Shown: positions 5,266 to 24,798 of the stretch, piece after piece | Layout: each line of letters opens with the position of its first letter | How positions within the stretch are numbered: position 1 is the stretch's first letter | Assembly: GCA_009693245.1 (NCBI GenBank) | Contig: SHXO01000022.1 | Coordinates: 1 to 35,432, forward strand | DNA: 35,432 nt | Direction: 5' to 3' | Source: Betaproteobacteria bacterium | Lineage (GTDB): Bacteria > Pseudomonadota > Gammaproteobacteria > Burkholderiales > SHXO01 | Program-made: the position numbers and the translations under genes | The notes under the pieces: generated by a model | Told to the model about the DNA's origin: nothing | The model's input: only the letters and a program-made list of their open reading frames with translations | Database searches by the model: none

Positions 5266-6330
5266 ATGTTGCCCCAAATTCGCACTGGATTGCTTGCCAT
5301 GGTGCTGGTCTTAGGCCCCGGGCTTGTAGCGCGGGCCGATGAACCCAAGATCTTCACCCTCGCCAGCTTCACCTTCGAAAATGGCAAGACCCTGAACAAT
5401 ATGCGCGTGGCCTACGATACCCATGGAGAGTTGAACGCGGCGCGCGACAACGCCCTATTGGTCACCCATGGCGCCAGCCAGGGGCGAAACGGATACAAGA
5501 TATTCATCGGGCCGGGCAAGGCATTCGATACCAATAGGTATTTCGTCATAACGGTGGATGCCATCGGTGGCGGCGGGTCGAGTAAGCCGGCCGACGGATT
5601 GGGCGCGGAATTTCCCGCCTATGGCATTCGCGATATGGTCCGTGCGCAGTACGATCTGGTCACGAAGGGTCTGGGATTGAAGAGTTTGGTCGCGGTGGGC
5701 GGGCCGTCGATGGGCTCCTTCCAGGCGCTGGAGTGGGGCATTCACTTCCGTGACTTCATGAAGGGCCTGCTGCTCATAGTACCCAGTGCACGCAGCGACC
5801 GTCACGTGCATGCCATCTTCGATGCGGTGATCAGCACCATAAAATTGGATGGCAAGTGGAACTCCGGGAACTACACCGAGAACCCAGTGGATGGCATCGT
5901 CACGGCTGGCATGATCTACTTTCCATGGCTCTACAGCGATGAGCATCTCAATACGCTGGTGAGCGACGAGGACTACCAGAAAGCGCAGCGTGCTTTCGGC
6001 GCAGGCTGGGCCAAGGTGTGGGATGCCCGCGGCTTGATCTACCGTTACCAAGCCACGGCAAAGCACGATGTTTCGCAACCCTTCGGCGGAGATATGGCGG
6101 ATTCTCTGGGCCGGATCAAGGCCAAAACGCTCATCATGCCCGGCATGACGGACCGGACGCTACCCAGTTACATGGGGCGCGAGATTTATCGTGGCGTGAA
6201 GAATAGCGTGTACGTGGAAATCCCTTCCTACCTGGGGCATATCGCCTGTTGTCCCAGTAGCGAGGACACCGCGGAATATGTCTTTATTTCCGCTCAGATC
6301 AAGCGATTTCTGGCGGATTTGGCTCGCTAG
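5266..6330 (+). CDS. exported MetX-like alpha/beta hydrolase
   Basis: This 354-residue protein has a signal peptide (about residues 1-24, ending VARA before DEPK) and an alpha/beta-hydrolase domain of the homoserine acetyltransferase (MetX) type. The nucleophile elbow is GGPSMGSFQALEWG, giving Ser148; the acid is probably Asp296 in TDR and the base His325 in YLGHIA. The sequence LLVTHGASQGRNGYKIFIGPGKAFDTNRYFVITVD fits the MetX core, where the oxyanion region and an FDT...FFVI motif occur. Cytoplasmic MetX acylates homoserine, but this one is exported, so a methionine role is unlikely and it may be an esterase or acyltransferase. GGAGG at 5252-5256 precedes ATG 5266. It diverges from the Liv binding-protein gene and converges with the hydrolase-cytochrome gene six bases away. 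Confidence 0.8.
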   Translation: MLPQIRTGLLAMVLVLGPGLVARADEPKIFTLASFTFENGKTLNNMRVAYDTHGELNAARDNALLVTHGASQGRNGYKIFIGPGKAFDTNRYFVITVDAIGGGGSSKPADGLGAEFPAYGIRDMVRAQYDLVTKGLGLKSLVAVGGPSMGSFQALEWGIHFRDFMKGLLLIVPSARSDRHVHAIFDAVISTIKLDGKWNSGNYTENPVDGIVTAGMIYFPWLYSDEHLNTLVSDEDYQKAQRAFGAGWAKVWDARGLIYRYQATAKHDVSQPFGGDMADSLGRIKAKTLIMPGMTDRTLPSYMGREIYRGVKNSVYVEIPSYLGHIACCPSSEDTAEYVFISAQIKRFLADLAR

Positions 6331-6336
6331 GGGGTG

Positions 6337-8026
6337 TCATTTCGAACCCGCCCCGGGGGCGGCGCGTTCCTCGCGCGCCTTGTTCACCAGATCTAACAGC
6401 GGTTCTCGCGCCGCCTCGGCGATCAGGTTTGTTTTCACGCCTACCATGCTGGCGGCGAGCGCTTGCTGAAAGACAAAGCGTCTCCATACTTCGGGGGGGG
6501 TAATCCTCTAAAGGCAGGCCAAGGCCACCTTGTTTGGCGCCATCTTCGACGCGATTGTGATGCGCCAGGGAACCTATCCCGCGCAAGGTATGGCAAGACA
6601 GGCAGCCGTTGGTGTAAGTCAGCACGGGTTTGAGGCTCTCGGGCAGATTGGGAAAAGCTTGCAGAGGGGAAGTTTCCGCCAAGCTAAAGCTGCTGGCGGT
6701 GAGGCTCATACCGGCGCTGAAGCGCAGCCTCAGATGTTCAGGCGGCGCCTTGCGCACATAGAGCATGCCGCCCAGTCCACGATAGACGGAGGGCAGGGGC
6801 TTCTTGCGATCGACCCACGAATATTCCCGCTTGTTGCGATAGGGTACCACGAAGCGAAACAGATCTTTTTCGTCGTCGATGCCCACCACGATGGCAGCGT
6901 CGAGGTCAATCAGTTCCTGCAAGGGCCAGTAGTAGTTTTCGTTGCGTGTGTTGACGGTGCGCAGCCACCTGCCTTTGCCAGAGAGCGTTTTGATCAATTC
7001 CGCCACGGGTATGGCGTGATATGTCTTCAGCGGCATGGCCGCCAACTGGTAGCGGTGTTCCAGAATATGCGCGAACAAGAACTCCTGAAAACGATCATCG
7101 GCGGGATAGGACCGGATCAGGTCACTGTGCTGGCTCCAAAACGATAGGGAGGACAAAGGTGGCGAGAAAAACAAATGTTGGTCGGCGTCCACAAGCAAGC
7201 GTAGCGATTCGTCCATGGGCTTGACGCCGGTGAAGTCCATTACCAGATCTCGGCTAATGGCGTTTTCTTCGGCGCCAAGGCTGGCGATGGACTGGTGATT
7301 GGTACCGGGTACGGTTTGGTAGATCACCTGCGCGCCCGAGCGGTGCAATCGCAGCGCAAAGGCCTGTGCATCGCGGGCGAAGCCGTCGAGATCGCGTTCT
7401 CCCGCCAGGATGAGAAAGCGCATTCGAGGCCTATCGAGAATGGCGCTTGAGGGGAACGGTTCCTTGAACGCCGCGCCGATGAATTCCGCTACCTGTCCTT
7501 GGCGGGCAGGGCCGCCAAGATCGTGTAGCCCGCTCAGCGTGATGACGCCGGCGATGTCCGAAGTGCCCAGACCGAAGGTACGGAGGACGTCCGGGTCGAA
7601 GACAGGCCTGCTTACGATGAATCCGCCGGAAGAATGGCCCACCAGAAAGATGCGCCGGGTGTCGATTCGATAGCGGCTGGCCTCCCTCTTGAGCAGCGCC
7701 ATCGCCGCCGCCACATCTTGCAGAGGCGCCGGCCAGGGTGCGCCGGATAGCGAACGCGTCCGAACAACGGCCACGGCGGCGCCCTCGAAGCGCAGTTTGC
7801 TGCTGCCGTCGGCGAACTTGAAAAAGCGCTCATCGAGCGCTCCCCAGAATCCCCCTGGCACATAGATCAACAGCGGCGCGGCGTCCTGGCCGGCCGGGAG
7901 GTAGAGATTGAGGCGCTGTGCGGCGTGCGAACCGTAGGGTAGGCCGAGAAAAAAATCATCTCCGGCGTGGGCGCTAGAGCCTGCTAGCCACACCAGGAGG
8001 AGTGTTATGCGGGTTATCTCAATCAT
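6337..8026 (-). pseudogene. exported alpha/beta hydrolase fused to a C-terminal cytochrome c segment, frameshifted at a G8 run
   Basis: The protein begins with a signal peptide (residues 1-21, AHA before GDDF). An alpha/beta-hydrolase domain follows, with the GHSSGG elbow (Ser132), Asp212 in GERD and His244 in TNHQS. Residues about 265-460 form a middle region I do not recognise. A haem-binding CLSCH sits at 475-479, followed by LEDYPP. As sequenced, the frame then runs into an arginine-rich nonsense tail to 6299 that overlaps the convergent neighbour. Dropping one base from the G8 run at 6493-6500 restores EVWRRFVFQQALAASMVGVKTN and a stop at 6337, a 562-residue protein ending six bases from the neighbour. 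So the true frame is very probably the corrected one. The cause may be a sequencing error, a mutation or slippage. The start overlaps the CoA-transferase stop (ATGA). Confidence 0.75.
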
Positions 8027-9132
8027 GCGAGCAGATCGTTATCCTCTCCCAGCGTGGGGTAGCGCACTTCGGCGCGAGAGTCGCGTAGTGTATCGGCAAC
8101 GGGCACGCAGCCGGCCATGAGCGTCCCGCCGGCCGCGCTGGTCACCTTACGGGTGAATAGCCCGCGCCCCAGGTAGTGCGAGTCGTTCAACGCGTCACTG
8201 ACGTTGCGCACGAGATTGCAACAAGCATCCTTTCCTTCGAGGCGCTTCAACCACTCCACGGCGGAGCGTTGCGAAATGAGTTCCGCGACCGCGCGCCGGG
8301 TGGCCTGGGCATCCTTGCTATCGTCGCGCAAGCGGGCGGGGAGTTCGATGACTTCGCAGAACACGCTCCAGAAACGGTCTTCCAGGGGAGCGGCCGCGAG
8401 GAATTGGCCATCGGCCGTGCGGTAGACTTGGTAGCGGGGGCTTCCCCCGGAGAGCATTTCCTGCCCGGGCCGCGGCCATTTTCCGGTGGTATTTCCCGTG
8501 CCCATGGCCCATAACATGAAAGGAAACAGGCAGTCCGTCATGGAGATGTCGATGTAACAGCCTTTGTGCGTGCGATCGCGCTGGCGCAAGGCGAGCAATA
8601 TGTTCATGACGGCGGGGTACGAGCCTCCCGCGATGTCGGCGACCAGGGCCGGGGGAACGACCGGCGCGCCGTAGCTGCCTGCGGCGAGGGCGAGCATTCC
8701 AGTGTCGGCTTGGTAGTTCAAGTCATGGGCGGCGATGGGGGACTTGGGTCCGTGCTGCCCGTAGCCGGTGATGGAGCAGTAGATCAATCCCGCATTGATT
8801 TCTCGCAACGCTTTGTATCCCAATCCCAGGCGCTCCATGACGCCTGGCCGAAATTGTTCGACCAACACGTCGGCGGTCTCCAGCAGGGGAAGCAGGCGTG
8901 TCTTGGCGTTGGGAGCTTTCAGATCGAGGGCCACGGAGCGCTTGCCCCGGTTGAGCATGGCGAAGGACGCACTCGTGCCGCCGAAGCGCGGTTCGTAACG
9001 GCGCATATCCTCGCCGTCCGGGCGTTCCACCTTGATCACCTGTGCCCCGGCTTCGGCTAGGAGCAAGGTGGCCATGGGCCCGGGCAGCAAGGTGCTGAAG
9101 TCGAGAACACGGATTCCTGAGAGAGGAAGCAT
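8023..9132 (-). CDS. family III CoA-transferase / alpha-methylacyl-CoA racemase-like protein
   Basis: This 369-residue cytoplasmic protein belongs to the CaiB/BaiF (family III) group, whose members move CoA between carboxylic acids or racemise 2-methylacyl-CoAs. It starts with the diagnostic LSGIRVLDFSTLLPGPMATLLLAEAGAQVIKVERP. It has SITGYGQHGP, and AHDLNYQADTGML, which carries the Asp that aligns with the catalytic residue in both subgroups; GHDINY at this place is typical of racemases. The length suits the AMACR type (about 360-380) better than formyl-CoA transferase (about 430). ATG 9132 is close to the divergent promoter region. The stop overlaps the ATG of the hydrolase-cytochrome gene, so both are co-transcribed. 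Which acid is handled is not visible. Confidence 0.88.
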   Translation of the reverse strand: MLPLSGIRVLDFSTLLPGPMATLLLAEAGAQVIKVERPDGEDMRRYEPRFGGTSASFAMLNRGKRSVALDLKAPNAKTRLLPLLETADVLVEQFRPGVMERLGLGYKALREINAGLIYCSITGYGQHGPKSPIAAHDLNYQADTGMLALAAGSYGAPVVPPALVADIAGGSYPAVMNILLALRQRDRTHKGCYIDISMTDCLFPFMLWAMGTGNTTGKWPRPGQEMLSGGSPRYQVYRTADGQFLAAAPLEDRFWSVFCEVIELPARLRDDSKDAQATRRAVAELISQRSAVEWLKRLEGKDACCNLVRNVSDALNDSHYLGRGLFTRKVTSAAGGTLMAGCVPVADTLRDSRAEVRYPTLGEDNDLLA

Positions 9133-9267: not shown

Positions 9268-11397
9268 TTGGTTGAAGATGAATCTCTCAAGATAACAATG
9301 CCCAGATTATTCGAGCGCCTTCGCGGTGGGTCCTTGGCCCACAAGATTCTTCTCATCAATGGCTTGGTGGTGCTTATCTGTGGCTTGCTCGCCTTGTGGT
9401 TGATGCTGTCGAACCAGCACCGGCTGGCGCGCGCCCAGTGGTTGAGTAGCGCTCATCTCACCACGAGCGTCGTTGCCCAGGGGTTGTCCGATGCCTTGGC
9501 CGCCAAGAGACCGACCGAAGTCCGTGCATTGCTCAATTCCTTGCTGGTGAGACCACAGGTCCGGGGCGCGGCGGTGTTCGGCGCGCATGGAAACTTGCTC
9601 TTCAGTTCAGGGCAAGGACTTGAGTTTCCTCAAACGCGAAGCGTGCAGGGCCAGGAGGCTGTAATGAGCGATCTCTTGGAAGCCCATGCCTCTCTCACCA
9701 CGAATGGGCGCAACTTAGGCACACTAGTGATCAGGGCGGACGAGTACGGCTTGTATCGCGCGGTGATCGATGATGCCTATCCCCTTCTGGTCATGGCGGG
9801 GTCAGGCCTCGTGATGCTCATGCTCATGATCTGGATGTTGATTCCCATGGCGATGCGCAGGCTGGGTCAGTTGGCCGATGTCATGGGAGCGGTCACACGC
9901 GACGCGAATTATGACGTCAGAGCGCCGGTGAAAGGGACGGATGAGACAGCCCAGCTCGCCCGTGCTTTCAATAGCATGCTCGATCAAATTCAAATTCGGG
10001 AAGGTAAGCTTCGCGAGGAACTCTCAGAGCGGCGCAAAGCACAACAGCAGACTGCCTACGTGGCAAACCACGATTTCGTGACGGGATTGCCCAACCGCCG
10101 GTTCTTCACCGAAGCCATTGGTCATTCGCTCGAAAAGATTAAACAAGGCGGCGAGAATATCGGCGTGGTGATCGTGGACATCGATAATTTCAAGAGGATC
10201 AACGATTCGTTCGGTCACCAGGCCGGTGACCGGATATTGGCCGAGGTGGGAAGCCGGTTACGCCAGAAATTGCGCTCCGCCGATCTCGTTTGCCGTCTGG
10301 GCGGAAATCAATTTGCCGTGTTGCTAGGCTCCGCGGCCAGCGCCCCGCAGGCCACGGACTTGGGCGAACGTGCGTTGCAAGCCATCCTCAAGCCCTTTGT
10401 CCTGGAGGGGAGGGAAGTGGAGCTCGGAGCCAGTGCTGGTATCGCGCTCGCGCTTAAGGACTCCACTCCCGAGGAGTTGCTGCGCAATGCGGAAGCGGCG
10501 CTGCATGACGCCAAAGCCTCGGGCAAGGGGAGTGTGCGTTTGTTCCGCCCCTACATGATCGACCGCGTCAAACAGCGCTTGAGCTTGGAGCAAGCCTTGA
10601 AGACGGCATTGGAGCAAGAGACATTCACCTTGCACTACCAACCGCAAGTCGGTGCGAAGACGCAAAAGCTCCTGGGCGTGGAAGCCTTGATTCGCTGGCG
10701 CCATCCCAAGTTGGGAGAGATCCCGCCTGCCCAGTTCATCCCCTTGGCCGAGGAAACCGGAATCATCGTTCCACTGGGCGCTTGGGTCTTGCGCCAAGCA
10801 TGCGCGGATGCCCATGCATGGCAATCCCAGGGTTTAAGCGGCGTGGGGGTGGCGGTCAATGTATCGGCAAGGCAGTTTCATGAACCCGGGTTCGTGGAAA
10901 CAGTGCTGGCAACCCTTCGACAAACCCGTCTCAACGGTAGTCTGCTGGAATTGGAGCTTACCGAAAGCATGCTGCTCGATCGTAACGGGTTGCATATCGC
11001 GGAACTCGCCGCCCTACGGGAGCAAGGCGTATCGTTTGCTATCGATGATTTCGGCACCGGGTATTCTTCCTTGTCCGTACTCAAGCATTTTTCCTTGCAA
11101 CGCTTGAAGATCGACCGCGGCTTCGTCAAGAATATTCCCTACGAGAGCGACGACGTGGCCATCGCCAGCGCGGTCATTGCCATGGGCCATAAGATGGGAC
11201 TGGAGGTGGTGGCGGAAGGAGTGGAGACGCAGTCTCAGTACGAATATCTCAAGGATCAAGCGTGCGACCGAATTCAGGGCTATCTATTCTCAAAGCCTCT
11301 TCCTTTGGAGGAACTGCTGGCCAAGTACGCGGTGCGCGGCGCCGAGCCGGAGCATCAAGGCGAGCAGCGCGAACCGAAGTTGGTGTTCTCGAGATAG
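9268..11397 (+). CDS. membrane GGDEF-EAL protein, likely c-di-GMP phosphodiesterase
   Basis: This 709-residue signalling protein (numbered from TTG 9268) has a membrane helix at about 28-48, an extracytoplasmic sensor region, a second helix at about 172-196, a HAMP segment to about 245, a GGDEF domain at about 263-425 and an EAL domain at about 435-690. The active-site motif is GGNQF (345-349) instead of GGDEF, so cyclase activity is probably lost. The EAL domain keeps EALIRW, NVSARQF, ELTES, IDDFGTGYSSL, LKIDR and AEGVET, the metal and catalytic set, so it should hydrolyse c-di-GMP. Start choice: TTG 9268 has AGAGGTGG just upstream, while ATG 9298 has a weaker site; both leave all domains intact. 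Confidence 0.9.
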   Translation: MVEDESLKITMPRLFERLRGGSLAHKILLINGLVVLICGLLALWLMLSNQHRLARAQWLSSAHLTTSVVAQGLSDALAAKRPTEVRALLNSLLVRPQVRGAAVFGAHGNLLFSSGQGLEFPQTRSVQGQEAVMSDLLEAHASLTTNGRNLGTLVIRADEYGLYRAVIDDAYPLLVMAGSGLVMLMLMIWMLIPMAMRRLGQLADVMGAVTRDANYDVRAPVKGTDETAQLARAFNSMLDQIQIREGKLREELSERRKAQQQTAYVANHDFVTGLPNRRFFTEAIGHSLEKIKQGGENIGVVIVDIDNFKRINDSFGHQAGDRILAEVGSRLRQKLRSADLVCRLGGNQFAVLLGSAASAPQATDLGERALQAILKPFVLEGREVELGASAGIALALKDSTPEELLRNAEAALHDAKASGKGSVRLFRPYMIDRVKQRLSLEQALKTALEQETFTLHYQPQVGAKTQKLLGVEALIRWRHPKLGEIPPAQFIPLAEETGIIVPLGAWVLRQACADAHAWQSQGLSGVGVAVNVSARQFHEPGFVETVLATLRQTRLNGSLLELELTESMLLDRNGLHIAELAALREQGVSFAIDDFGTGYSSLSVLKHFSLQRLKIDRGFVKNIPYESDDVAIASAVIAMGHKMGLEVVAEGVETQSQYEYLKDQACDRIQGYLFSKPLPLEELLAKYAVRGAEPEHQGEQREPKLVFSR

Positions 11398-11622: not shown

Positions 11623-12114
11623 ATGAAGACCGTCTTCGGCTCATTGAGCCATTTCGAGAAGGGCCGGGTCGAGGTGATCGACGACAACGCCAAGAACTAC
11701 GCCTTTTCCAATGTCTTCGAGATTTGCTCGAAGTCCAAGCCCTACGAGAAGGTGGTGATGGGCATCAATCAAATCTACGTGCTGGAAGCTATCCGGGCCG
11801 AAGGGAGTTCGCCCTGGTTTAGCTGCGCTCATGACGAGTTCGTGCTCAACATGGATGGCGAGGTCTATGTGCATATGGTGAAGCTGGACCGTCCCGCCGT
11901 GGCCAACCCGGAGAAAAATGGCGCTATCCAATTGAACGGCGAGCCGGCCGGCAAGAAAATGGGATGGATGAAATTGAAACGCGGCCACCAGGGCATGCTG
12001 CCCGCGAACTGCGCCTACCAATTTCGCGCCGCGAAGCCAGCCGCGCTCGTTCTGCAAACCACCCTGGGCGATCTGTCCGTGCAGAAGTGGGCGCTGATCT
12101 GCCAGGCCGCTTGA
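11623..12114 (+). CDS. pnpC: hydroquinone 1,2-dioxygenase small subunit
   Basis: This 163-residue soluble protein is the small subunit of the two-component Fe(II) hydroquinone dioxygenase (PnpC of PnpCD, HapC of HapCD), which cleaves hydroquinone to 4-hydroxymuconic semialdehyde. The size matches the known roughly 18 kDa subunit. The identification depends on the neighbour: the next gene is the large subunit with the full metal-binding set. The sequence has a cupin-like feel (GEVYVHMVKL, GHQGMLPANCAYQF) but no complete metal site, as expected because iron is held by the large subunit. GGAGGAG lies just before ATG 11623. It is the first gene of the long operon and follows the tandem operator. 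Confidence 0.8.
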   Translation: MKTVFGSLSHFEKGRVEVIDDNAKNYAFSNVFEICSKSKPYEKVVMGINQIYVLEAIRAEGSSPWFSCAHDEFVLNMDGEVYVHMVKLDRPAVANPEKNGAIQLNGEPAGKKMGWMKLKRGHQGMLPANCAYQFRAAKPAALVLQTTLGDLSVQKWALICQAA

Positions 12115-12128
12115 TAGGAGGAATGTTC

Positions 12129-13133
12129 ATGAATGCCCCTGTAGAGACCTTAAAGGCGCGATCCTCGCCTCCCAACTTGCATGGCTACAAGAGTTACCGG
12201 CTCGGCCAATTCGAGTTCAGCCGCGACGAGTATTTCGCCCACATCCGCTGGACGGGACGTAATGGCAAGTCAATGAGCCACAGCACCGATATTGGAAATT
12301 TCTTGCGCCCGCTCATGCGCGACGTGGCTTGGGGATTCTTCTATGGTTACGTCAATTTCGACGATGTGTTCGGCACCTGCAATAAGTACACGTCCGTGGA
12401 TGTCTACGCCGGCACGTACAACGGCCAGTTCAGTAAATCCGAAGTGGACTTGCTACAAAATTTCCCCACCGAGGAAGTGCGCGCCACCTTCGTGGAGATG
12501 CTGGAGGATTGGGTGAACGAGGGTTACGATCCCTTCGCCGCGCCCCAGGAAACTGGTTCGCCCTATGGCCCCAAGCGCGGTGAGAACTTGAAAGCTCTGC
12601 GCCGCGTACGCCAACTGGCCAAGCGCTGTGTAGGATTGAAAGGCGATCTCGCCGTGCGTACGGACGACATGGGCTATCCGGTGAACCGCGCCTTCGCCGA
12701 CGTGCCGCAAGATTATCCGGAATTGCACCCGGAACCCGGATTCGAGAACGAGGTGCACGCCTTCAACCTCTTTGCTTACCTCTCGCGCTCGGATGTGACC
12801 TGGAACCCTTCCTTCACCTCGGTGGTGAAGTACAGCTTCTGTTGCCCCACCACGGAAGAGCACATCTTGCCCGTGATTCACGGCAACGACCGCGTGGAGT
12901 GGTTCTTTCAGATGTGCGACGAGATTCACTGGAATTCCGGAGACAAGAAAACCGGCGCGCCGCGTGCGCGGGTGATCATGAAAGCGGGCGATATGGCCGC
13001 CATGCCCGCCGATTGCCGCCATCAAGGCTTCTCGCCCAAACGCTCCATGCTGCTGGTGTGGGAGAACGGTTCCCCGCAAGTGGTCCACGACATCGAAGCC
13101 GGGAAGTCGCCGGTGAATCCGGTGAGTTTTTGA
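12129..13133 (+). CDS. pnpD: hydroquinone 1,2-dioxygenase large (iron-binding) subunit
   Basis: This 334-residue protein is the catalytic subunit that cleaves hydroquinone next to a hydroxyl group. The metal ligands can be read: His251, Asn253 and Glu257 in HGNDRVE, and His298 in DCRHQG. The spacing (0, +2, +6, +47) equals the His256/Asn258/Glu262/His303 set I recall for Pseudomonas PnpD, with a constant offset of five. Two ATGs are near: GGAGG at 12117-12121 is one base from ATG 12123 and seven from ATG 12129, so 12129 is chosen. The gene follows the small subunit by 14 bases. The expected product, 4-hydroxymuconic semialdehyde, needs a dehydrogenase that is not encoded nearby. Confidence 0.87.
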   Translation: MNAPVETLKARSSPPNLHGYKSYRLGQFEFSRDEYFAHIRWTGRNGKSMSHSTDIGNFLRPLMRDVAWGFFYGYVNFDDVFGTCNKYTSVDVYAGTYNGQFSKSEVDLLQNFPTEEVRATFVEMLEDWVNEGYDPFAAPQETGSPYGPKRGENLKALRRVRQLAKRCVGLKGDLAVRTDDMGYPVNRAFADVPQDYPELHPEPGFENEVHAFNLFAYLSRSDVTWNPSFTSVVKYSFCCPTTEEHILPVIHGNDRVEWFFQMCDEIHWNSGDKKTGAPRARVIMKAGDMAAMPADCRHQGFSPKRSMLLVWENGSPQVVHDIEAGKSPVNPVSF

Positions 13134-13196
13134 AGAAGAAGGGAGGCGGGAGAGGGGAGGAGTGAGGAGAACTGCTTTTCCCTAGCCCCTAGAAAA

Positions 13197-13886
13197 ATGA
13201 TCGACAAAATCGTCTCATCCATCACCGAAGCCGTCTGCGGTATCCACGACGGGGCCACCATCATGATCGGGGGCTTCGGGGGTTCGGGCATGCCTAGCGA
13301 ACTGATCGACGGTTTGATCGCGCAAGGGGCCAAGGACCTCACCATCGTCAATAACAACGCGGGTAATGGCGAGACGGGTTTGGCTGCGCTGTTGAAAGCC
13401 AAGCGTGTGCGCAAGATTCTGTGTTCCTTTCCGCGCCAAGTGGATTCTCATCACTTTGACGCCCTCTACCGTTCGGGCGAGGTTGTGTTGGAGTTGGTGC
13501 CGCAAGGCAATTTGGCGGAACGCATTCGCGCGGCGGGAGCGGGAATCGGCGGGTTTTTTACTCCCACGGGTTATGGCACCGAGTTAGCGAAGGGCAAGGA
13601 AACGCGCATCATAGATGGCAAGGGTTACGTCTATGAGACGCCCATCCATGCGGATTTCTGCCTGGTCAAGGCGGAGAAGGCCGACCGTCTTGGCAATTTG
13701 GTATTTCGTAAGGCGGGGCGCAATTTTGGCCCCATCATGGCGGCGGCGGCTCAATGCGCCGTCGTGCAAGTCAATGAAATCGTCGCGGTGGGCGCATTGG
13801 ATCCGGAGGCGATCGTGTCTCCTGGAATATATGTAGATAGGGTGGTGCATGTCCCGCGCGCGCCTAAACTTCAGGCGGTGGCCTAG
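13197..13886 (+). CDS. pcaI: 3-oxoadipate CoA-transferase subunit A
   Basis: This 229-residue alpha subunit of a class I CoA-transferase starts with the glycine-rich VCGIHDGATIMIGGFGGSGMPSELIDGL segment that defines SCOT/PcaI alpha chains. NNNAGNGETGLAALL is characteristic of oxoadipate transferases and GGFFTPTGYGTELAKGKE is also present. With PcaJ it transfers CoA from succinyl-CoA to 3-oxoadipate. Neighbouring maleylacetate reductase and thiolase support 3-oxoadipate over acetoacetate as substrate. Upstream (13134-13190) is a purine-rich stretch that includes several GGAG cores but ends far from ATG 13197, so the exact ribosome site is unclear. The stop TAG is directly followed by the ATG of pcaJ. 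Confidence 0.9.
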   Translation: MIDKIVSSITEAVCGIHDGATIMIGGFGGSGMPSELIDGLIAQGAKDLTIVNNNAGNGETGLAALLKAKRVRKILCSFPRQVDSHHFDALYRSGEVVLELVPQGNLAERIRAAGAGIGGFFTPTGYGTELAKGKETRIIDGKGYVYETPIHADFCLVKAEKADRLGNLVFRKAGRNFGPIMAAAAQCAVVQVNEIVAVGALDPEAIVSPGIYVDRVVHVPRAPKLQAVA

Positions 13887-14543
13887 ATGAAAAAACTGAC
13901 CCGTGACGAAATCGCCGCGCGCGTGGCGCGCGACATTCCCGAAGGCGCCTACGTCAATTTGGGCATCGGGCTTCCCACCCTGGTGGGCAATCATCTGCCC
14001 AAGGGGAAGGAGATTTTCTTGCATAGCGAGAACGGTATCCTGGGCATGGGTCCGGCCCCGGCGCCCGGTGAAGAGGATGAAGATCTCATCAACGCCGGCA
14101 AACAACCCATCACACTGCTGCCTGGCGCGGCCTTCTTTCATCACGCCGATTCCTTCGCCATGATGCGCGGCGGCCATCTCGATATCTGCGTGCTGGGGGC
14201 TTTCCAGGTTTCGGTGGAAGGCGACCTCGCTAACTGGAGTACGGGCGAACCCGGTGCCATTCCCGCGGTGGGGGGGGCCATGGATCTGGCGGCGGGTGCC
14301 AAGCAGGTGTTCATCATGATGGAACACTTGACGAAGAAAGGGGAGAGCAAAATCGTTCCGCGGTGCACCTATCCCCTGACTGGCATCAAGTGCGTGAGCC
14401 GAATCTACACGGATCTCGCGGTGATCGGTGTCACGCCTCACGGCTTGGTGGCGCATGAATGGGTGGAAGGATTGAGCCTGGAAGAGTTGATTCGTCTGAC
14501 TGGCGTGCCGCTCTCGACCCTGCCACGGCAGGCGCGCGCGTGA
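13887..14543 (+). CDS. pcaJ: 3-oxoadipate CoA-transferase subunit B
   Basis: This 218-residue beta subunit carries the catalytic glutamate in the SENGILGMG motif, which forms the glutamyl-CoA thioester during transfer. ARVARDIPEGAYVNLGIGLPTLVGNHLP is the standard beta-chain opening, and GGHLDICVLGAFQVSVEGDLANW continues the fold. ATG 13887 abuts the pcaI stop with no gap. The stop overlaps the GTG of maleylacetate reductase (GTGA). Together with PcaI it makes 3-oxoadipyl-CoA for the thiolase encoded at the end of the operon. Confidence 0.92.
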   Translation: MKKLTRDEIAARVARDIPEGAYVNLGIGLPTLVGNHLPKGKEIFLHSENGILGMGPAPAPGEEDEDLINAGKQPITLLPGAAFFHHADSFAMMRGGHLDICVLGAFQVSVEGDLANWSTGEPGAIPAVGGAMDLAAGAKQVFIMMEHLTKKGESKIVPRCTYPLTGIKCVSRIYTDLAVIGVTPHGLVAHEWVEGLSLEELIRLTGVPLSTLPRQARA

Positions 14544-15625
14544 AGCATTTCGTCTACACCGCTCACACCGCGCGCGTCGTCTTTGGCGTGGATAGTTTGC
14601 GGCACTTGCAACGAGAGATCGAACTGCTGGGCGCGGCGCGTGCGTTGGTGTTGAGTACACCTGAGCAGCGCGCGGCCGCCGAGGATATTTCCTCGCGCCT
14701 GGGTTCGCGCGCCGCGGGCATCTACTCCAAGGCAGTAATGCACGTACCCATCGAAACAGCCGAGGCCGCGCGCGCGGTAGCCAAGGAGTTGAAAGCCGAT
14801 TGCTGTGTAGCCGTGGGAGGGGGTTCCACCATAGGCTTGGGCAAAGCCATCGCGTTGACCAGCAATTTGCCTATTCTCGCTATTCCCACCACCTTCGCCG
14901 GTTCCGAGATGACGCCCATCTACGGCATCACCGCGCAAGGCCAGAAGAAAACCGGGCGCGATCCCCGCGTTTTGCCCAAGACCGTGATATACGACCCGAA
15001 CCTGCTGGCGACACTTCCCGCGAAGATCGCGGGGCCCAGCGGCATGAACGCCATTGCCCATTGCTCGGAGGCGTTGTACGCGCAGGAGGCCAATCCCATC
15101 GCCTCCAATATGGCGGAGGAAGGTATTCGCGCCCTGGCGCGAGGGTTACCGCTCATCGTGCGAGATGCGCGCAATCTGGATGCAAAGTCAGATGCGCTCT
15201 ACGGCGCATGGCTCGCGGGCACTTGTCTGGGGCAGGTGGGCATGGCGCTGCATCATAAACTTTGCCACACGCTGGGAGGCAGCTTCAATTTGCCGCACGC
15301 GGAGACCCACACCGTCGTCCTGCCTCACGCTTTGGCCTACAACCGCGGAGCCGCGCTCGAGGCCATGGCGCGTATCGCCGGCGCGTTAGGGGCAGTCGAT
15401 GCGGCCCAGGGTGTTTACGATCTCGCGGAATCTCTAGGCACGCCGCTTTCGCTCAAGGATCTCGGCATGCGCGAGGACGGCCTGGACCGCGCCGCGGACA
15501 TTGCGACCACCGATCCCTACTGGAATCCACGCCCCATCGAGCGCGAGGCCATTCGAAAATTGCTGGATGACGCATTCTGGGGACGGCGGCCAGCTTATAC
15601 CTGTAGACTACACCACGATAAGTAG
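14540..15625 (+). CDS. maleylacetate reductase
   Basis: This 361-residue iron-type alcohol dehydrogenase family enzyme reduces maleylacetate to 3-oxoadipate with NAD(P)H. FVYTAHTARVVFG opens the protein as in known maleylacetate reductases. VAVGGGSTIGLGKAIAL is the dinucleotide-binding loop, IPTTFAGSEMTPIYGIT is the family motif, and HHKLCHTLGGSFNLPHAETHTVVLPHA contains the histidines of the metal/substrate pocket. The start is GTG 14540, overlapping the pcaJ stop. It lies where hydroquinone and hydroxyquinol routes converge, since both ring-cleavage enzymes in this island lead to maleylacetate. Length is normal (about 350-360). Confidence 0.92.
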   Translation: MKHFVYTAHTARVVFGVDSLRHLQREIELLGAARALVLSTPEQRAAAEDISSRLGSRAAGIYSKAVMHVPIETAEAARAVAKELKADCCVAVGGGSTIGLGKAIALTSNLPILAIPTTFAGSEMTPIYGITAQGQKKTGRDPRVLPKTVIYDPNLLATLPAKIAGPSGMNAIAHCSEALYAQEANPIASNMAEEGIRALARGLPLIVRDARNLDAKSDALYGAWLAGTCLGQVGMALHHKLCHTLGGSFNLPHAETHTVVLPHALAYNRGAALEAMARIAGALGAVDAAQGVYDLAESLGTPLSLKDLGMREDGLDRAADIATTDPYWNPRPIEREAIRKLLDDAFWGRRPAYTCRLHHDK

Positions 15626-15644
15626 TGTTGGAGGAGGCATCGCA

Positions 15645-16832
15645 GTGCGGACCACGACTGTAAGAAGACCCAGCGAGCATGCCGTTCGGGCGAAATCCAT
15701 CGCCGGCGATCTTGCAAAGGGTGCGCTCGAAACCATCGCCGCTCGCAAGCTCATCAAGCAAAGTGTCGGGCTCATTCGCGAGGCGGGCCTCACCAAGGTG
15801 CTGCAACCCAGGCGCTGCGGCGGCTGGGAAGCGAGTTTGCACGATCATATCGACGTGGTGGAAGAAGTAGCCTACGGCTGCGGTTCCACCGGCTGGTGCC
15901 TGGGCGTGTACCAGGCCCACTCGTGGTTGCTGGGATCTTTCGTTGCGCGCGCGCAAGACGATGTCTATGGCGCCAATCCCAACGCCATCGTCTCCGCCGT
16001 GATCGGGCCGCGCGGCCAGGCGCGCAAGGTTCAAGGGGGCTACAAGCTCTCCGGCTTCTGGCCCTTTTGCTCGGGTTGCCATCACTCCGATTGGGTGCTG
16101 CTGGGCGAGATGGTGATGGGGGATGATGACGCCATTCTCGACAGCGGCGTCATGGCGATACCGGCCCGCGAAGTAAACATTCAAGACGACTGGTACACGG
16201 GCGGGCTCACGGGCACCGGCAGCAATAGCGTGACGGTGAAGGATCTGTTCGTGCCCGAGCACCGTTTCTTGTCCGTGCCCGCCGCCATCGAAGGCAAGAC
16301 GCCGGGCGCGCACTTGCACGGCACCCCTCTTTACCGGTCCGCCGCCGTGCCCGCGTTGGCCTTGTTCATTTGTAGCGCCGCGCTCGGCATGAGCCGGCGT
16401 GCGCTGGACAGCTTCATCGCTCGCTTGCCAGGGCGCATCGTGGCCTACACCTTTGGCGACAAGCAGATGGATCTCGCGGTGACTCACATCGAGGTGGCGG
16501 AAGCGGCCACCAAACTCGACGCCGCACGCTTGATTCTGCATGGCATGGTGGACGAAGTGGAAGCCTACGCCAACCAAGGCGCGCAAATGCCCTTGGAGCG
16601 GCGCGCCAAGGCCCGCATGGATTGCGCCTACGCGGTGCGCTTGTGTCTGGAGTCCACCCAGACGTTGTACATTGCCACCGGCGGCAGCGGGTTGGATGAG
16701 AAGAGCCCGGTGCATCTGGCGCAGAAGGATTTGCACGCCATCAACATGCATGGGCTGCTCAGCATGAAGACCAATCTGGAGATGTACGGGCGCGTGTTGC
16801 TGGGGATGTCCCCGAATTCACCGGTTGTGTAA
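15645..16832 (+). CDS. flavin-dependent monooxygenase, acyl-CoA-dehydrogenase fold (oxygenase component)
   Basis: This 395-residue protein has the acyl-CoA dehydrogenase fold but is best read as a two-component (group D) flavin monooxygenase, like the oxygenases of p-hydroxyphenylacetate (C2 type), HsaA and the resorcinol hydroxylase GraA. Evidence: AGLTKVLQPRRCGGWEAS and VVEEVAYGCGSTGWCLGVYQAHSW at the N-terminus, GYKLSGFWPFCSGCHHSDWVLLG in the middle, DDWYTGGLTGTGSNSVTVKDLFVPE, and a C-terminal helical domain. A flavin reductase follows at once. GTG 15645 is preceded by GGAGGAGG (15630-15637), so it is preferred over the longer upstream frame, which shadows maleylacetate reductase. The substrate is probably a phenol hydroxylated to hydroquinone or hydroxyquinol; which one cannot be told. 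Confidence 0.82.
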   Translation: MRTTTVRRPSEHAVRAKSIAGDLAKGALETIAARKLIKQSVGLIREAGLTKVLQPRRCGGWEASLHDHIDVVEEVAYGCGSTGWCLGVYQAHSWLLGSFVARAQDDVYGANPNAIVSAVIGPRGQARKVQGGYKLSGFWPFCSGCHHSDWVLLGEMVMGDDDAILDSGVMAIPAREVNIQDDWYTGGLTGTGSNSVTVKDLFVPEHRFLSVPAAIEGKTPGAHLHGTPLYRSAAVPALALFICSAALGMSRRALDSFIARLPGRIVAYTFGDKQMDLAVTHIEVAEAATKLDAARLILHGMVDEVEAYANQGAQMPLERRAKARMDCAYAVRLCLESTQTLYIATGGSGLDEKSPVHLAQKDLHAINMHGLLSMKTNLEMYGRVLLGMSPNSPVV

Positions 16833-16835
16833 TTC

Positions 16836-17435
16836 GTGCCCAAGCCCTTGCACGAGCGCCATCCTTGGGTAAGCACGCCGGTGCGGCGGGATGTCCAAGC
16901 CAAGATCTACCATTCGGTGGATGCGAACTCCTTCAAGAAGGGCATGCGCCAATTGCCGGCGGGCGTGTCCATCGTCACGACGGGCGATGGCGGGGAGGGG
17001 CGCGCGGGATTTACCGCGACGGCGGTATGTTCAGTCTCCGCGGAGCCCCCTCAGTTGCTCGTTTGCGTCAACGCAACGAGCAACACGCACCCCAAGATTC
17101 GGGAGTGGAAAAATTTCTGCGTTAACGTTTTGTCTAGCACGCAACATCCCGTCGCGTGCCATTTCGCCAGCGCATCCGCTACCGCGGACCGTTTCGAGGT
17201 GGGAGATTGGTCCGTGCTGGATACCGGGGCACCCGTGCTCAAGGGATGCCCGGTCAATTTCGATTGCACCTTGGCGCGGGAGATTGAAGCGGGTACGCAC
17301 ACAATATTCATTGGAAATGTCGCCGCAGTGGCGGTTATCGCAGGATTGGAGCCGCTTGCCTTCGTGGACGGACAGTATCTGAACATCGGCCCCACCAAAC
17401 GCGGGTCCGATGCGGAGTTGTGGGATTGGAGTTAA
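16836..17435 (+). CDS. flavin reductase component of the two-component monooxygenase
   Basis: This 199-residue protein of the HpaC/HsaB-like flavin reductase family supplies reduced FMN or FAD to the preceding oxygenase. It shows FKKGMRQLPAGVSIVTT, GFTATAVCSVSAEPPQLLVCVN (the flavin-binding core), CVNVLSSTQHPVACHFA and a C-terminal PLAFVDGQYLNIG. The family is about 160-190 residues; the first 25 or so residues here are an extra N-terminal extension. The start is GTG 16836, three bases after the oxygenase stop; an in-frame ATG is much further in and would cut into the fold. Tight spacing supports co-expression. Confidence 0.85.
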   Translation: MPKPLHERHPWVSTPVRRDVQAKIYHSVDANSFKKGMRQLPAGVSIVTTGDGGEGRAGFTATAVCSVSAEPPQLLVCVNATSNTHPKIREWKNFCVNVLSSTQHPVACHFASASATADRFEVGDWSVLDTGAPVLKGCPVNFDCTLAREIEAGTHTIFIGNVAAVAVIAGLEPLAFVDGQYLNIGPTKRGSDAELWDWS

Positions 17436-17482
17436 GCGATTTATCGTTGCTGTATTTCATTACAAACACACGGGAGGAGAGT

Positions 17483-18772
17483 ATGAGTAAAGACCTGACC
17501 GGTCGCCGCAAGGTGCTCAAGACCGGCGCAACCGCAGTCGCATTGTTGAGTTTTCCCTTCATCAACACCAAGCTCGCGTCCGCGCAGTCTGGACGAAAGA
17601 TCAAGATCGGCTATGTCATACCCAAGACGGGCCCGCTCGCCATCTTCGCCGAGACGGACAAGTTCGTGATCGGCGAGCTGAGCGCGCTGTTCAAGGCCGG
17701 CGTCACCATCGGGGGCAAGAATTACCCGGTGGAAATCATCGAGAAGGATAGCCAGTCCACGCCGAATCGCGCGGGGGAAGTGGCCTCCGATCTCATATTG
17801 AAGGACAAGGTCGATCTCATGCTGGTGTCCGCCACGCCCGAGACGGTGAATCCCGTGGGCGATCAATGCGAATTGAACGAAGTCCCTTGCATATCGACCT
17901 TGTGCCCGTGGCAGCCGTGGTTCTTCACTCGTGGCGGCGATCCGGCCAAGGGGTTCGACTGGACTTACCATTATTTCTGGGGGCTGGAAGACATCATCGC
18001 TGTGTTCACCAACATGTGGGACAGCCTGCCCACCAACAAACAAGTGGGCGCGCTGTTCCCCAACGACGGCGACGGCAACGCCTGGGGCGACCCTGAGCGC
18101 GGCTTTCCCAAACCGCTCAAGGCCAAGGGATACAGCATGACGGACCCTGGCCGCTACCAGAATCTGCAACAGGATTTCAGCGCGCAAATTTCCGCTTTCA
18201 AGAAGGGCAATTGCGAGATCGTCGCGGGTGTGGTGATTCCGCCGGATTTCAAAACCTTCTGGACCCAGGCCGCGCAACAAGGCTTCAAGCCGAAGGCCGT
18301 ATCCGTGGGCAAGGCGCTGCTGGTGCCGCCCTCGGTGGAGGCCATGGGCGACATCGCCGATGGGTTGTCCACGGAAATATTCTGGAGCCCCACCTTCCCC
18401 TACAAATCTTCCCTCACCGGAATCAGCGCGAAGGATCTGGGCGCGGGTTACGAAAAGAGCACGGGCCGCCAGTGGACGCAGATGCTAGGCTTTACCCACT
18501 CGCTGTTCGAGGTCGCCGTGGATGTGCTGAAGCGCTGCAAGAATCCCGATGACAAGGCGGCCATTCGCGATGCCATCGCCTCCACCAACCTCAATACCAT
18601 GGTGGGCCCGCTATCCTGGGGCAAGGGGCCGGTCAAGAACGTGGCCAAGGTGTCGCTCGTGGGCGGCCAATGGGTGAAGGGCAAGAAACATAAGTTCGAT
18701 CTCGTGGTGGTCAACAACAAGACCGCGCCTCACGTTCCCGTGGGCGCGAAGATGAAGGTCATCGGAACCTAG
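17483..18772 (+). CDS. periplasmic substrate-binding protein of the catabolic Liv-type ABC transporter
   Basis: This 429-residue binding protein starts the transporter part of the operon. The signal peptide has a twin-arginine look (GRRKVLKTGATAVALLSFPF, ending around LASAQ), so export through Tat is likely. KIKIGYVIPKTGPLAIFAETDKFV begins the mature LivK-type fold. GGAGGAG at 17473-17479 precedes ATG 17483. Because it is embedded between ring-cleavage and thiolase genes, its ligand is probably the aromatic substrate of the pathway. It differs clearly in sequence from the binding protein at 3868-5157, which has a Sec-type signal, so the two importers should have different ligands. Confidence 0.9.
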   Translation: MSKDLTGRRKVLKTGATAVALLSFPFINTKLASAQSGRKIKIGYVIPKTGPLAIFAETDKFVIGELSALFKAGVTIGGKNYPVEIIEKDSQSTPNRAGEVASDLILKDKVDLMLVSATPETVNPVGDQCELNEVPCISTLCPWQPWFFTRGGDPAKGFDWTYHYFWGLEDIIAVFTNMWDSLPTNKQVGALFPNDGDGNAWGDPERGFPKPLKAKGYSMTDPGRYQNLQQDFSAQISAFKKGNCEIVAGVVIPPDFKTFWTQAAQQGFKPKAVSVGKALLVPPSVEAMGDIADGLSTEIFWSPTFPYKSSLTGISAKDLGAGYEKSTGRQWTQMLGFTHSLFEVAVDVLKRCKNPDDKAAIRDAIASTNLNTMVGPLSWGKGPVKNVAKVSLVGGQWVKGKKHKFDLVVVNNKTAPHVPVGAKMKVIGT

Positions 18773-18795
18773 GGACTAGGATCTAGGGGCTAGGG
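18769..18795. repeat. CTAGGG-type short tandem repeat
   Basis: Immediately at the stop of the binding-protein gene the sequence repeats CTAGGG-like units (CTAGGGACTAGG, ATCTAGGGGCTAGGG). A related CCCTAGCCCCTAG lies at 13180-13191 before pcaI, in inverse orientation. Such decaying repeats occur between genes of one operon here. Confidence 0.55.
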
Positions 18796-18835
18796 ATTGC
18801 CGCCGCGCGAAAGCGTGGCGGTAATTTCGTTGCGC

Positions 18836-19558
18836 ATGAACCCACTCTTACGCGTGGAAAACGCCTCGAAGAGCTACGGCGCTCTGAAGGTGATCTACCA
18901 GCTTTCCTTGGACGTGATGGCCGGGGAGACCCTGGGTATTCTGGGGCCCAATGGAGCGGGCAAGACCACCTTATTCAATTTGATCGGCGGCGACGTCAAG
19001 CCGGACAAGGGCCAGGTCTTGTTCGAGGGACGCGCAATCACCGGATTGCCGCCGCACGAACTCTGCCAGAAAGGCATTGGGCGTTCCTACCAAATCCCTC
19101 ATCCCTTCATTGGCATGACCGTGTTCGAGAACCTGTTAGCGGGGGCGGCCTTCGGTGGAAAATTGCGCGAAGGCGAAGCGAGCGGCGTCTGCGTGGATGT
19201 GCTGCGCCGAACGGGGCTCGCCCAGAAGGCCAACGCGCTCGCCGGATCGCTCAGTTTGCTGGACCGCAAGCGCTTGGAACTGGCGCGCGCCTTGGCGACA
19301 CAACCAAGGTTATTGCTGCTCGATGAGATCGCGGGCGGGCTCACGGAGCACGAGGCCAAGGAGTTGGTGAGCGAGATTCAACGGATCAAGGCCACGGGCA
19401 TGACCATCCTCTGGATCGAGCATGTGGTGCATGCGCTTCTCGCCGTGGCGGACCGTCTATATGTCATCAACTTCGGGCAGAAAATCGCCGAGGGCGAGCC
19501 GCGCGAAGTCATGAACGATGCGGAGGTGAAGAGGGTTTATATGGGTATTGAGGTCTAA
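18836..19558 (+). CDS. livG: branched-chain-type ABC transporter ATPase LivG (catabolic island)
   Basis: This 240-residue ATPase belongs to the second importer. ATG 18836 (MNPLLRVENASKSYG) fits the LivG N-terminus; a TTG 39 bases earlier only adds unlikely residues, and no good ribosome site is visible for either. Walker A is GPNGAGKTT, the family segment GIGRSYQIPHPFIGMTVFENLLAGA is present, and Walker B is LLLLDEIAGGL. The signature loop reads SLSLLDRKRLELARALA, not the usual LSxGQ, a variation shared in kind with the LivG at 3.1-3.8 kb. It belongs with the binding protein upstream and LivF downstream. Confidence 0.9.
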   Translation: MNPLLRVENASKSYGALKVIYQLSLDVMAGETLGILGPNGAGKTTLFNLIGGDVKPDKGQVLFEGRAITGLPPHELCQKGIGRSYQIPHPFIGMTVFENLLAGAAFGGKLREGEASGVCVDVLRRTGLAQKANALAGSLSLLDRKRLELARALATQPRLLLLDEIAGGLTEHEAKELVSEIQRIKATGMTILWIEHVVHALLAVADRLYVINFGQKIAEGEPREVMNDAEVKRVYMGIEV

Positions 19559-19605
19559 ATGCTGGAGGAGAGAGGGGGAGTTGGTAGGAGGGAGGCGTAG
19601 AAGCG

Positions 19606-19668
19606 TGAGACGTGAAGCGTAAGACGTGAGGTAACGTCTCATCACCCTTCACCCTTCACCCTTCACGA
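19606..19668. repeat. intergenic hairpin and CACCCTT tandem repeat
   Basis: TGAGACGT (19606-19613) and ACGTCTCA (19634-19641) are perfect 8-base inverted repeats enclosing partly repeated GTGAAGCGTAAGACGTGAGG. Three CACCCTT units follow (19642-19664). The element sits between livG and livF of the same operon, seven bases before the livF ATG, where it may fold in the transcript and reduce the downstream ribosome site, which lacks an obvious GGAG. Confidence 0.6.
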
Positions 19669-19674
19669 TCATAT

Positions 19675-20370
19675 ATGCTGCTACAAACCACCAAACTAAA
19701 CGCTTTCTACGGGGACTTTCAAGCCCTCTTCGGGATCGATTTCGAGCTGGATGCGGGCGAGATCGTGGCCATCATCGGGGCGAACGGGGCGGGGAAATCC
19801 ACGTTCTTGAAGACGGTGACGGGACTGCTGGCATCATCGCCGGAAGCCGTGCGCTTCGACGGGCACGCCGTGGGTGGGCGCGCACCGGGGAAGATCGTGG
19901 CGGCGGGCATCGCCATGGTGCCCGAAGGGCGGCGGCTGTTTCCCAGTTTGAGTGTCGAGGAAAATCTGCGCATGGGGGCCTACAGCGGGCGGCGCGGGCG
20001 CTGGACGCTCGATACGGTGTATGAATTGTTTCCCATGCTGAAGGAGAAGTGCCACGCTCCCAGCACGTCGCTTTCCGGCGGCCAGCAGCAGATGGTGGCG
20101 ATTGGCCGGGCGCTCATGTCGAACCCTAAGTTATTACTGTGCGATGAGACTTCCCTGGGGCTTGCGCCCATCGTGGTAAAGGACATTTATGACGCGCTCG
20201 CGAAAGTCTCCGCGGAAGGGTTGAGCACCATCATCGTCGAGCAAGACGTCGGCCTCGCGCAGCGAGCGTCGAGCCGTTTGTATTGCTTCCAGGAAGGCCG
20301 TGTGTCGCTTTCGGGGCGCTCGGAAGAACTCTCGCGCGAGCAAATCTCCCATGCCTACTTCGGTGTTTGA
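19675..20370 (+). CDS. livF: branched-chain-type ABC transporter ATPase LivF (catabolic island)
   Basis: This 231-residue ATPase has Walker A GANGAGKST, the LivF-type segment IAMVPEGRRLFPSLSVEENLRMGAY, the canonical signature LSGGQQQM, and Walker B LLLCDETSLGLAP. The switch region EQDV has Asp in place of the more frequent Asn. ATG 19675 lies just after a repeat element and has no clear Shine-Dalgarno sequence, so its translation may be modest. livH follows after three bases. Confidence 0.92.
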   Translation: MLLQTTKLNAFYGDFQALFGIDFELDAGEIVAIIGANGAGKSTFLKTVTGLLASSPEAVRFDGHAVGGRAPGKIVAAGIAMVPEGRRLFPSLSVEENLRMGAYSGRRGRWTLDTVYELFPMLKEKCHAPSTSLSGGQQQMVAIGRALMSNPKLLLCDETSLGLAPIVVKDIYDALAKVSAEGLSTIIVEQDVGLAQRASSRLYCFQEGRVSLSGRSEELSREQISHAYFGV

Positions 20371-20373
20371 ATC

Positions 20374-21264: not shown

Positions 21265-21290
21265 TCACGTTACACGAAGCAAACTTGCTA

Positions 21291-21373
21291 CTCCCTCACT
21301 CTCGATCCATCTCCCGGAGGGCGAGGGAAGCAGCCCCCTTCTCCCTCCGGGAGAAGGGCAGGGGATGAGGGAG
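21291..21373. repeat. 83-base inverted-repeat element between livH and livM
   Basis: Outer arms CTCCCTCA (21291-21298) and TGAGGGAG (21366-21373) and inner arms TCTCCCGGAGGG (21310-21321) and CCCTCCGGGAGA (21343-21354) are perfectly complementary, giving a long imperfect stem. The CCCTCTCCC-gggagaggg style is that of dispersed repeats seen between genes in many proteobacteria. It has no coding content and lies within the operon, where it could stabilise or attenuate the transcript. Confidence 0.7.
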
Positions 21374-21386
21374 CCGGCCAATTGCA

Positions 21387-22439: not shown

Positions 22440-22529
22440 AGCGCATGCATTGCCAGCGATCCAAACGCCCCTTGGTTGCCATGAACTTTGGCCTCTTTGC
22501 CAGAAACCGCGGCGCAACCTCGCTTTTAC

Positions 22530-22569
22530 TCCTCCCCATCCCCCTTCCCTCCTCATTCCTCCCTTATTC
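22530..22569. repeat. pyrimidine tract before the thiolase gene
   Basis: A run of CTCC, CCCC and CCTCC units lies 13 bases before the thiolase ATG. It is a rough complement to the GGAGGA repeat at 22374-22436. The ribosome site TAGGAG at 22571-22576 lies just outside it. Confidence 0.5.
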
Positions 22570-22581
22570 TTAGGAGCATTT

Positions 22582-24707: not shown

Positions 24708-24798
24708 TTTTTTCCTCCGGTGATCGGCAACACTCACGGCTTAGTATGACAGGCTGGCGGAATGAGCGCCAAACGAGCACAACAGGAGACATGCAGCC

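Follow-up and report, generated by a model that had tools for sequence, protein, structure and literature searches.

PVA is degraded by an oxidised PVA hydrolase, a quinohaem dehydrogenase and a cytochrome c, which are encoded by separate genes. SoxCD and the haem-bearing sulfite dehydrogenases combine a SUOX-fold subunit with a c-type haem, and SoxC works with a c-type haem partner. According to excerpts of PMC13259868, the periplasmic protein PruR has no molybdenum Cys and uses Trp160 and Tyr104 to bind pterin, and PruR proteins elsewhere regulate GGDEF-EAL partners. For the individual ends of the protein described here, the closest described relatives are the BD-FAE/HSL esterases (PF20434, PF07859) and the class I cytochromes c (c551, 2PAC).

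The gene lies in a window of 35,432 nucleotides (the whole stretch of DNA that was analysed; contig SHXO01000022.1 of the Betaproteobacteria bacterium assembly GCA_009693245.1), and each described system shares a part with it. Like the PVA-degrading pair, it would place a periplasmic hydrolase beside a haem oxidation step; the pair, however, is encoded separately, was matched only through its hydrolase and weakly (3wl6, E 0.15), and no paper on it was returned by the literature search. SoxCD and sulfite dehydrogenases share the combination of fold and haem, whereas the middle domain of our family contains no Cys, is unmatched by PF00174 (0 of 14 members) and is accompanied by an additional esterase domain. 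With BD-FAE/HSL esterases the protein shares the fold, the GHSSG nucleophile elbow, the Asp and the His (Z about 20); a haem domain, in contrast, is named in none of the 49 matched PDB molecules, a count that covers names only. Class I cytochromes c likewise have a CxxCH followed by about 80 residues and provide the best PDB sequence match, albeit at E 0.13 only, while the family lacks a conserved Met and has a His at +11. Finally, PruR entries (7KOM, 7KOU, 7KOS, 7RKB and 7KP2) were aligned with a model of the relative L044 over 112-122 residues (Z 6.8-8.1), and the absence of Cys from the middle domain parallels the absence of the molybdenum Cys from PruR in excerpts of PMC13259868. Differences from PruR are the lack of sequence-profile support, the fusion to hydrolase and haem domains, the absence by eye of an evident counterpart of Trp160 (Trp404 is invariant in the family alignment instead) and the absence of any DcpA-type partner that we could see.

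Thus, the parts appear from alignments and models to resemble known folds, and a system that joins hydrolase, middle and haem domains was not described in the literature searched, in agreement with an earlier note on this DNA, which knew of none; the excerpted text of PMC12055684 concerns proteins other than such a fusion. The reading that we prefer, with a confidence that falls a little short of even, is that the esterase would cleave its substrate, the middle domain would then carry out an oxidation, and the electrons would pass to haem c.

Domain anatomy of the window protein

The open reading frame at 6299-8026 on the minus strand (575 aa) carries the signal peptide, the hydrolase domain, the middle stretch and the CLSCH motif in a single frame (Table 1), and the earlier description of one polypeptide with these features therefore held. 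The predicted signal peptide, MIEITRITLLLVWLAGSSAHA, is by inspection hydrophobic, with AHA ahead of the likely cleavage site.

Table 1. Features of the fusion gene and of the gene upstream, in window coordinates.
Feature	Position	Strand	Basis or comment
Whole gene, frame slip included	6337..8026	minus	ATG at 8024-8026; stop at 6337-6339
Predicted signal peptide, residues 1-21	7964..8026	minus	Translation judged by inspection
Predicted alpha/beta hydrolase domain (BD-FAE/HSL type), about residues 26-265	7232..7951	minus	Pfam and model
Putative nucleophile Ser132 in GHSSG (130-134)	7631..7633	minus	Motif scan, alignment A6
Putative acid Asp212	7391..7393	minus	Alignment with relatives, ...DFPGF
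Putative base His244	7295..7297	minus	Alignment with relatives, ...NHFS/DHFS
Middle domain, about residues 289-455, tentative SUOX/PruR-like fold, no Cys	6662..7162	minus	Model of the relative L044
CLSCH haem-c attachment motif, residues 475-479	6590..6604	minus
HisHis, residues 489-490, second His conserved	6557..6562	minus
Run of eight C (coding strand) at which the frame slips	6493..6500	minus
C-terminal part of haem domain, shifted frame	6340..6492	minus	Profile match 6376-6495, E 2.1e-5
Upstream class III CoA-transferase	8023..9132	minus	Pfam PF02515, E 6.3e-96

Residues 39-137 matched the Pfam family PF20434 (BD-FAE) with an E of 8.3e-15 and 55.3 bits against a curated cut-off of 26.8, and the hydrolase model superimposed on solved esterases with a Z of 20.4 across 230 residues. 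Solved sequence relatives include acetyl xylan esterase, other esterases and lipases, and the Ser132-Asp212-His244 triad is in register with the relatives in which it is intact. An NCBIfam scan of the window protein returned hydrolase families only, all below their cut-offs (the HSL equivalog scored 55 bits against a cut-off of 320). The N-terminal domain of the window protein is therefore predicted to be a BD-FAE/HSL-type serine esterase.

The C-terminal half matched neither a Pfam family above its cut-off nor any NCBIfam family. For the middle region of about 200 residues, which the earlier note had called unrecognised, this verdict stood as far as Pfam is concerned, since no family exceeded its cut-off; a match to DUF3182 (E 0.029, 13.8 bits against 26), spanning 47 residues only, was rejected as an assignment. 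It needs to be qualified in that a model of the region in L044 resembles the SUOX/PruR fold, a resemblance that sequence profiles did not support (see below).

A recurrent fusion with a conserved, predicted haem-bearing part

A full-length query against 60 genomes, including the window's own, matched the hydrolase domain only, apart from the window gene itself. With a C-terminal query, 4 of 369 genomes of the class were matched (own genome included), and profiles searched around two of the matched genomes found 3 of 143 and 5 of 113, the starting genomes being counted. A search around the genome of L043 matched 6 of 145 genomes, again counting that genome, and the genome_contigs collection yielded 5 loci from 231 candidate stretches, all five from records of MAGs. 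No relatives were found in 86 candidate stretches of viral_contigs, none among 398 genomes of the window's phylum beyond its own genome, and none among 395 genomes of the phylum of L043 beyond that of L043 itself. After removal of duplicates between collections, the family comprises, together with the window protein, 15 proteins from 14 genomes (further members: L034, L038, L042 to L047 and L051 to L056). They come from two distant lineages, Gammaproteobacteria (judged by the record titles of L044 to L047 and by membership of one class for the window and the other genomes concerned) and the lineage around L043 (Deltaproteobacteria in its record title, Myxococcota as its label in the tree).

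Every member has an N-terminal domain followed by the middle-plus-haem part, and several consist of one open frame of 482-617 aa. The earlier note had named homologues with the two parts as separate genes as the observation that would overturn its fusion; among the 15 members there is no clear case of a middle-plus-haem part encoded alone. Two members are interrupted: in L051 (632-2416) an in-frame TAG cuts through the middle domain and leaves open frames of 441 and 153 codons, and L055 has its hydrolase in a different frame, ahead of a masked stretch (locus L096). Since 15 proteins from distant bacteria have their parts in one and the same order, the hydrolase-haem fusion is genuine and not an artefact, and the 14 further proteins bear out what had been read from a single sequence.

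The two halves of the fusion differ in their conservation. CxxCH occupies a fixed position in 14 of the 15 members, the window included, which goes beyond chance, whereas the triad is intact in seven (the window, L051, L052, L053, L054, L056 and L055/L096), lost in seven and masked in one (L043, in which the nucleophile region is masked and Asp and His are present). Therefore, judging from the alignments, the conserved core of the family is the middle-plus-haem part and not the hydrolase. Among the members without a triad, L044 (GYFAG in place of the nucleophile motif) and L038 are still recognisable as hydrolases (hhalign probabilities of 99.9% and 96.3%), and the remaining five are short proteins of the group f94 (L034, L042, L045, L046 and L047). 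The BD-FAE family of Pfam was detected in 5 of 8 proteins scanned. That the f94 N-termini are decayed hydrolases was considered and not adopted, as the evidence is no more than suggestive (an hhalign E of 0.055 at a probability of 1%, against E 0.42-0.78 for five shuffles). In a tree of 15 rows, the loss of the triad takes two changes, although the long branches of L042 and L044 make the details unsure, and L055 was scored there as masked although its hydrolase is intact. The split L051 was left out of alignments A6 and A7, and L055 out of A6 and of the counts of residues after the haem motif.

This pattern raises the alternative that the hydrolase is mainly a scaffold or binding module derived from an ancestral esterase, that the enzymatic work is done by the middle-plus-haem core and that the intact triad of the window protein is a secondary retention. 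The seven losses with the core retained would fit such a role, as would L044, which keeps the hydrolase fold without a nucleophile; however, the complete triad is present in seven members, of which six belong to one lineage, so that selection probably still holds the triad there, and we regard a mere scaffold as unlikely. Our preferred reading has an active esterase as its first step. The way in which the triad has been lost speaks for a redox core that is primary and for an esterase that prepares the substrate and can be dispensed with.

Tentative folds and ligands of the middle and haem domains

The fold of the middle domain was approached through an AlphaFold2 model of the C-terminal part of L044, built from 6 sequences (mean pLDDT 71.5, with block means of 82-94 across residues 71-130). 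In a Foldseek search of the L044 model against the PDB, no match reached an E of 0.001; ranks 1-6 were all PruR chains, the best being 7kou (E 0.076, probability 0.91), and SoxC, sulfite oxidase and 1xdy/1xdq followed at lower ranks amid unrelated entries. When 292 chains were aligned with the L044 model (VIA), the ten entries listed were headed by 7kom (Z 8.1 over 118 residues, 3.5 A), 7kou (7.8), 7kos (7.7) and 7rkb (7.6), followed by SoxC (2xts, 7.0), 7kp2 (6.8), 9a64 (6.2), sulfite oxidase (6.1), 1xdy (5.2) and 1xdq (5.1), where a Z below 8 may reflect merely a common arrangement. The entry 9a64 is an integrative model; the nine others comprise the PruR entries, SoxC, sulfite oxidase, and 1xdq and 1xdy, an oxidoreductase that we take to be YedY. 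The agreement of nine of these ten entries on one fold is what counts in favour of a match to the SUOX fold.

Sequence comparisons did not reinforce this match. An hhalign comparison of the family profile with 4 PruR-like sequences (five stretches had been fetched, four yielded a gene, and L090 was dropped) or with 30 SUOX sequences gave probabilities of 0.1-0.2%, the profiles being shallow, and a Cys that could serve as a molybdenum ligand is absent from the middle domain of all 15 members. The full-length model of the window protein (mean pLDDT 65.2) is neutral on the question, as its fold search listed hydrolases only and barely probed the middle part. With reserve, we therefore describe the middle domain as resembling the SUOX/PruR fold in the model, PruR being the best match, with sequence profiles giving no support.

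The C-terminal domain has the CLSCH motif in a protein predicted to be exported, as is expected of a c-type cytochrome, and haem is probably attached there; the own genome also encodes the haem-c maturation protein CcmE (E 3.1e-38). Among PDB sequences, the family profile came closest to cytochrome c551, a weak match that is not significant (E 0.13) over profile positions 205-288, and the Pfam family Cytochrom_C was matched by 2 of 14 members, with a best E of 0.025 (L052 scored 14.5 bits against a cut-off of 21.3). All 14 rows of A7 have His in the column of His490, and the His at +11 from the motif is present in all 14 proteins tested and also in L055, as judged by that column. No Met position after CxxCH is shared across 14 proteins (L055 left out), and the c551 segment PMPPN, whose Met is presumably the haem ligand of c551, aligns with G-A/V-x-x-N, which has no Met. 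The sixth ligand may therefore be the conserved His, a residue of another domain, or none.

One member departs from the motif itself: in L054 (1486-2364), CVYCN replaces CxxCH with the triad and HisHis intact, possibly a natural loss of the haem ligand. Together with the lack of a conserved Met, this means that electron transfer is not assured.

Because a Met ligand is lacking, the haem could be five-coordinate and serve as a sensor or ligand-binding site without catalytic electron flow, the esterase or a partner being controlled by the gas or small molecule bound there. The missing Met position and the alignment of PMPPN are what such a sensor would lead one to expect, but the conserved His at +11 could itself be a ligand, no output domain was seen, and the GGDEF-EAL neighbour of the window gene (9268-11397) was not seen by eye at the loci of eight relatives. 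This role, too, we judge improbable, and we continue with a haem that would accept electrons from the middle domain.

Reading frame, surroundings and proposed function

The span of 6337-8026 proposed earlier does contain all parts of the gene, yet a frame slip within it had been missed: its 1690 bases are not a multiple of 3, and the frame changes after Pro511 at the run of eight C. A nine-member profile matched the own genome twice, at 6476-7234 in the main frame and a second time in the other frame (Table 1). The listed tail RSMETLCL... is thus out of frame, and the homologous tail, EVWRRFVFQQALAASMVGVKTNLI...GSK, is encoded in the other frame, the continuation after the slip reading EVWRRFVFQQALAASMVGVKTNLIAEAAREPLLDLVNKAREERAAPGAGSK up to the stop. 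Since 2 runs of eight G were observed in the window against 2.92 expected, there is no sign of phase variation, and a phase-variable tract was dropped as an explanation.

With a frame slip near its end, the window gene may represent an assembly error or a damaged copy. That it is broken or decaying, or that the slip was introduced by assembly, so that the window protein would perhaps be uninformative either way, would account for a slip at eight consecutive C and for a homologous tail that is read in a different frame; however, the residues of the triad and of the haem motif, which precede the slip, are undamaged, runs of this kind are expected by chance, and three genomes of the same genus (68, 100 and 78% complete, two thus below 80%) contained no orthologue or C-terminal match for comparison, which leaves this reading quite improbable. 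That the whole fusion is an assembly artefact joining genes separate in nature would draw on the 130 contigs of the window's genome and on the slip as at least one sequence anomaly, but it is scarcely conceivable given the identical part order in 15 proteins from 14 genomes, several as one open frame, and was rejected.

The TGA of the upstream CoA-transferase gene overlaps the ATG of the fusion gene by 4 bases (ATGA, 8023-8026), and the window also encodes two branched-chain-type ABC importers and a hydroquinone-type pathway. The surroundings thus suggest uptake and breakdown of organic compounds as their theme. Neighbourhoods of relatives, compared by eye at 8 loci (L043, L092 to L097 and L099), vary: a gene for an NMT1-type binding protein lies upstream in 4 of the 8 (L043, L093, L094 and L096), with a double cupin in between in L043 and L093, and a metallophosphoesterase gene follows the member gene in L043, L093 and L094, one instance of each of these three neighbours being confirmed by Pfam. 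The remaining loci and those of the f94 proteins have other neighbours.

Further genes of the window were noted in passing. A catabolic cluster at 11964-25656 encodes the N-terminal domain of a hydroquinone dioxygenase (PnpCD), two CoA-transferase subunits, an Fe-alcohol dehydrogenase, an acyl-CoA dehydrogenase C-terminal domain, a thiolase and an intradiol dioxygenase, interleaved with the second branched-chain-type ABC importer. An exported-looking MetX-like hydrolase (5266-6330; PRK07581/E22 type, below NCBIfam cut-offs) is convergent with the fusion gene, the two stops being 6 bases apart. An open reading frame at 30010-31731 resembles PQQ-dependent dehydrogenases, its best stretch covering profile positions 1-343 of 595. 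The HAMP-GGDEF-EAL gene at 9268-11397 is divergent from the CoA-transferase gene, and its periplasmic part matched CHASE8 with an E of 6.8e-5 and 23.5 bits, below the cut-off of 27; given this weak match and the absence of such a gene from the eight relatives' loci, pterin signalling with this neighbour was dropped.

The earlier note had proposed that a hydrolase joined to a cytochrome would couple ester or lactone cleavage to redox chemistry. This coupling finds no support, because hydrolysis transfers no electrons and 7 of 15 members have lost the catalytic residues yet kept the haem part. We propose instead that the protein belongs to a rare, uncharacterised family of exported proteins with c-type haem. 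In the periplasm, its serine esterase domain would cut an ester, the acid part of which may be aromatic or of another organic kind. The middle domain, probably SUOX/PruR-like, would bind the released product or a small redox cofactor, the product or the bound cofactor would be oxidised there, and the C-terminal cytochrome c domain would take up the electrons and pass them to the respiratory chain. Haem attachment, the substrate, the flow of electrons and the order of the steps are what we infer from the domains; what the computations show is the domain anatomy, the conservation of the fusion and a haem core that is conserved in members with a decayed esterase.

A bolder version of this proposal, and as a whole an unlikely one, would see a new three-part periplasmic enzyme in which a serine esterase frees the substrate, a molybdenum-free domain of SUOX fold and pterin type oxidises it, and the electrons exit through a built-in c-type haem without Met, while sister lineages would have let the esterase decay and kept only the redox core intact. 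If the fold reading is true, the family would represent a haem-linked relative of the SUOX/PruR fold without the molybdenum Cys, tied to an esterase and to catabolic surroundings, and one could then test whether a fold of this type can employ small pterins, or organic ligands of another kind, as redox cofactors. The family also presents a recurring fusion whose enzyme half decays while its haem half persists.
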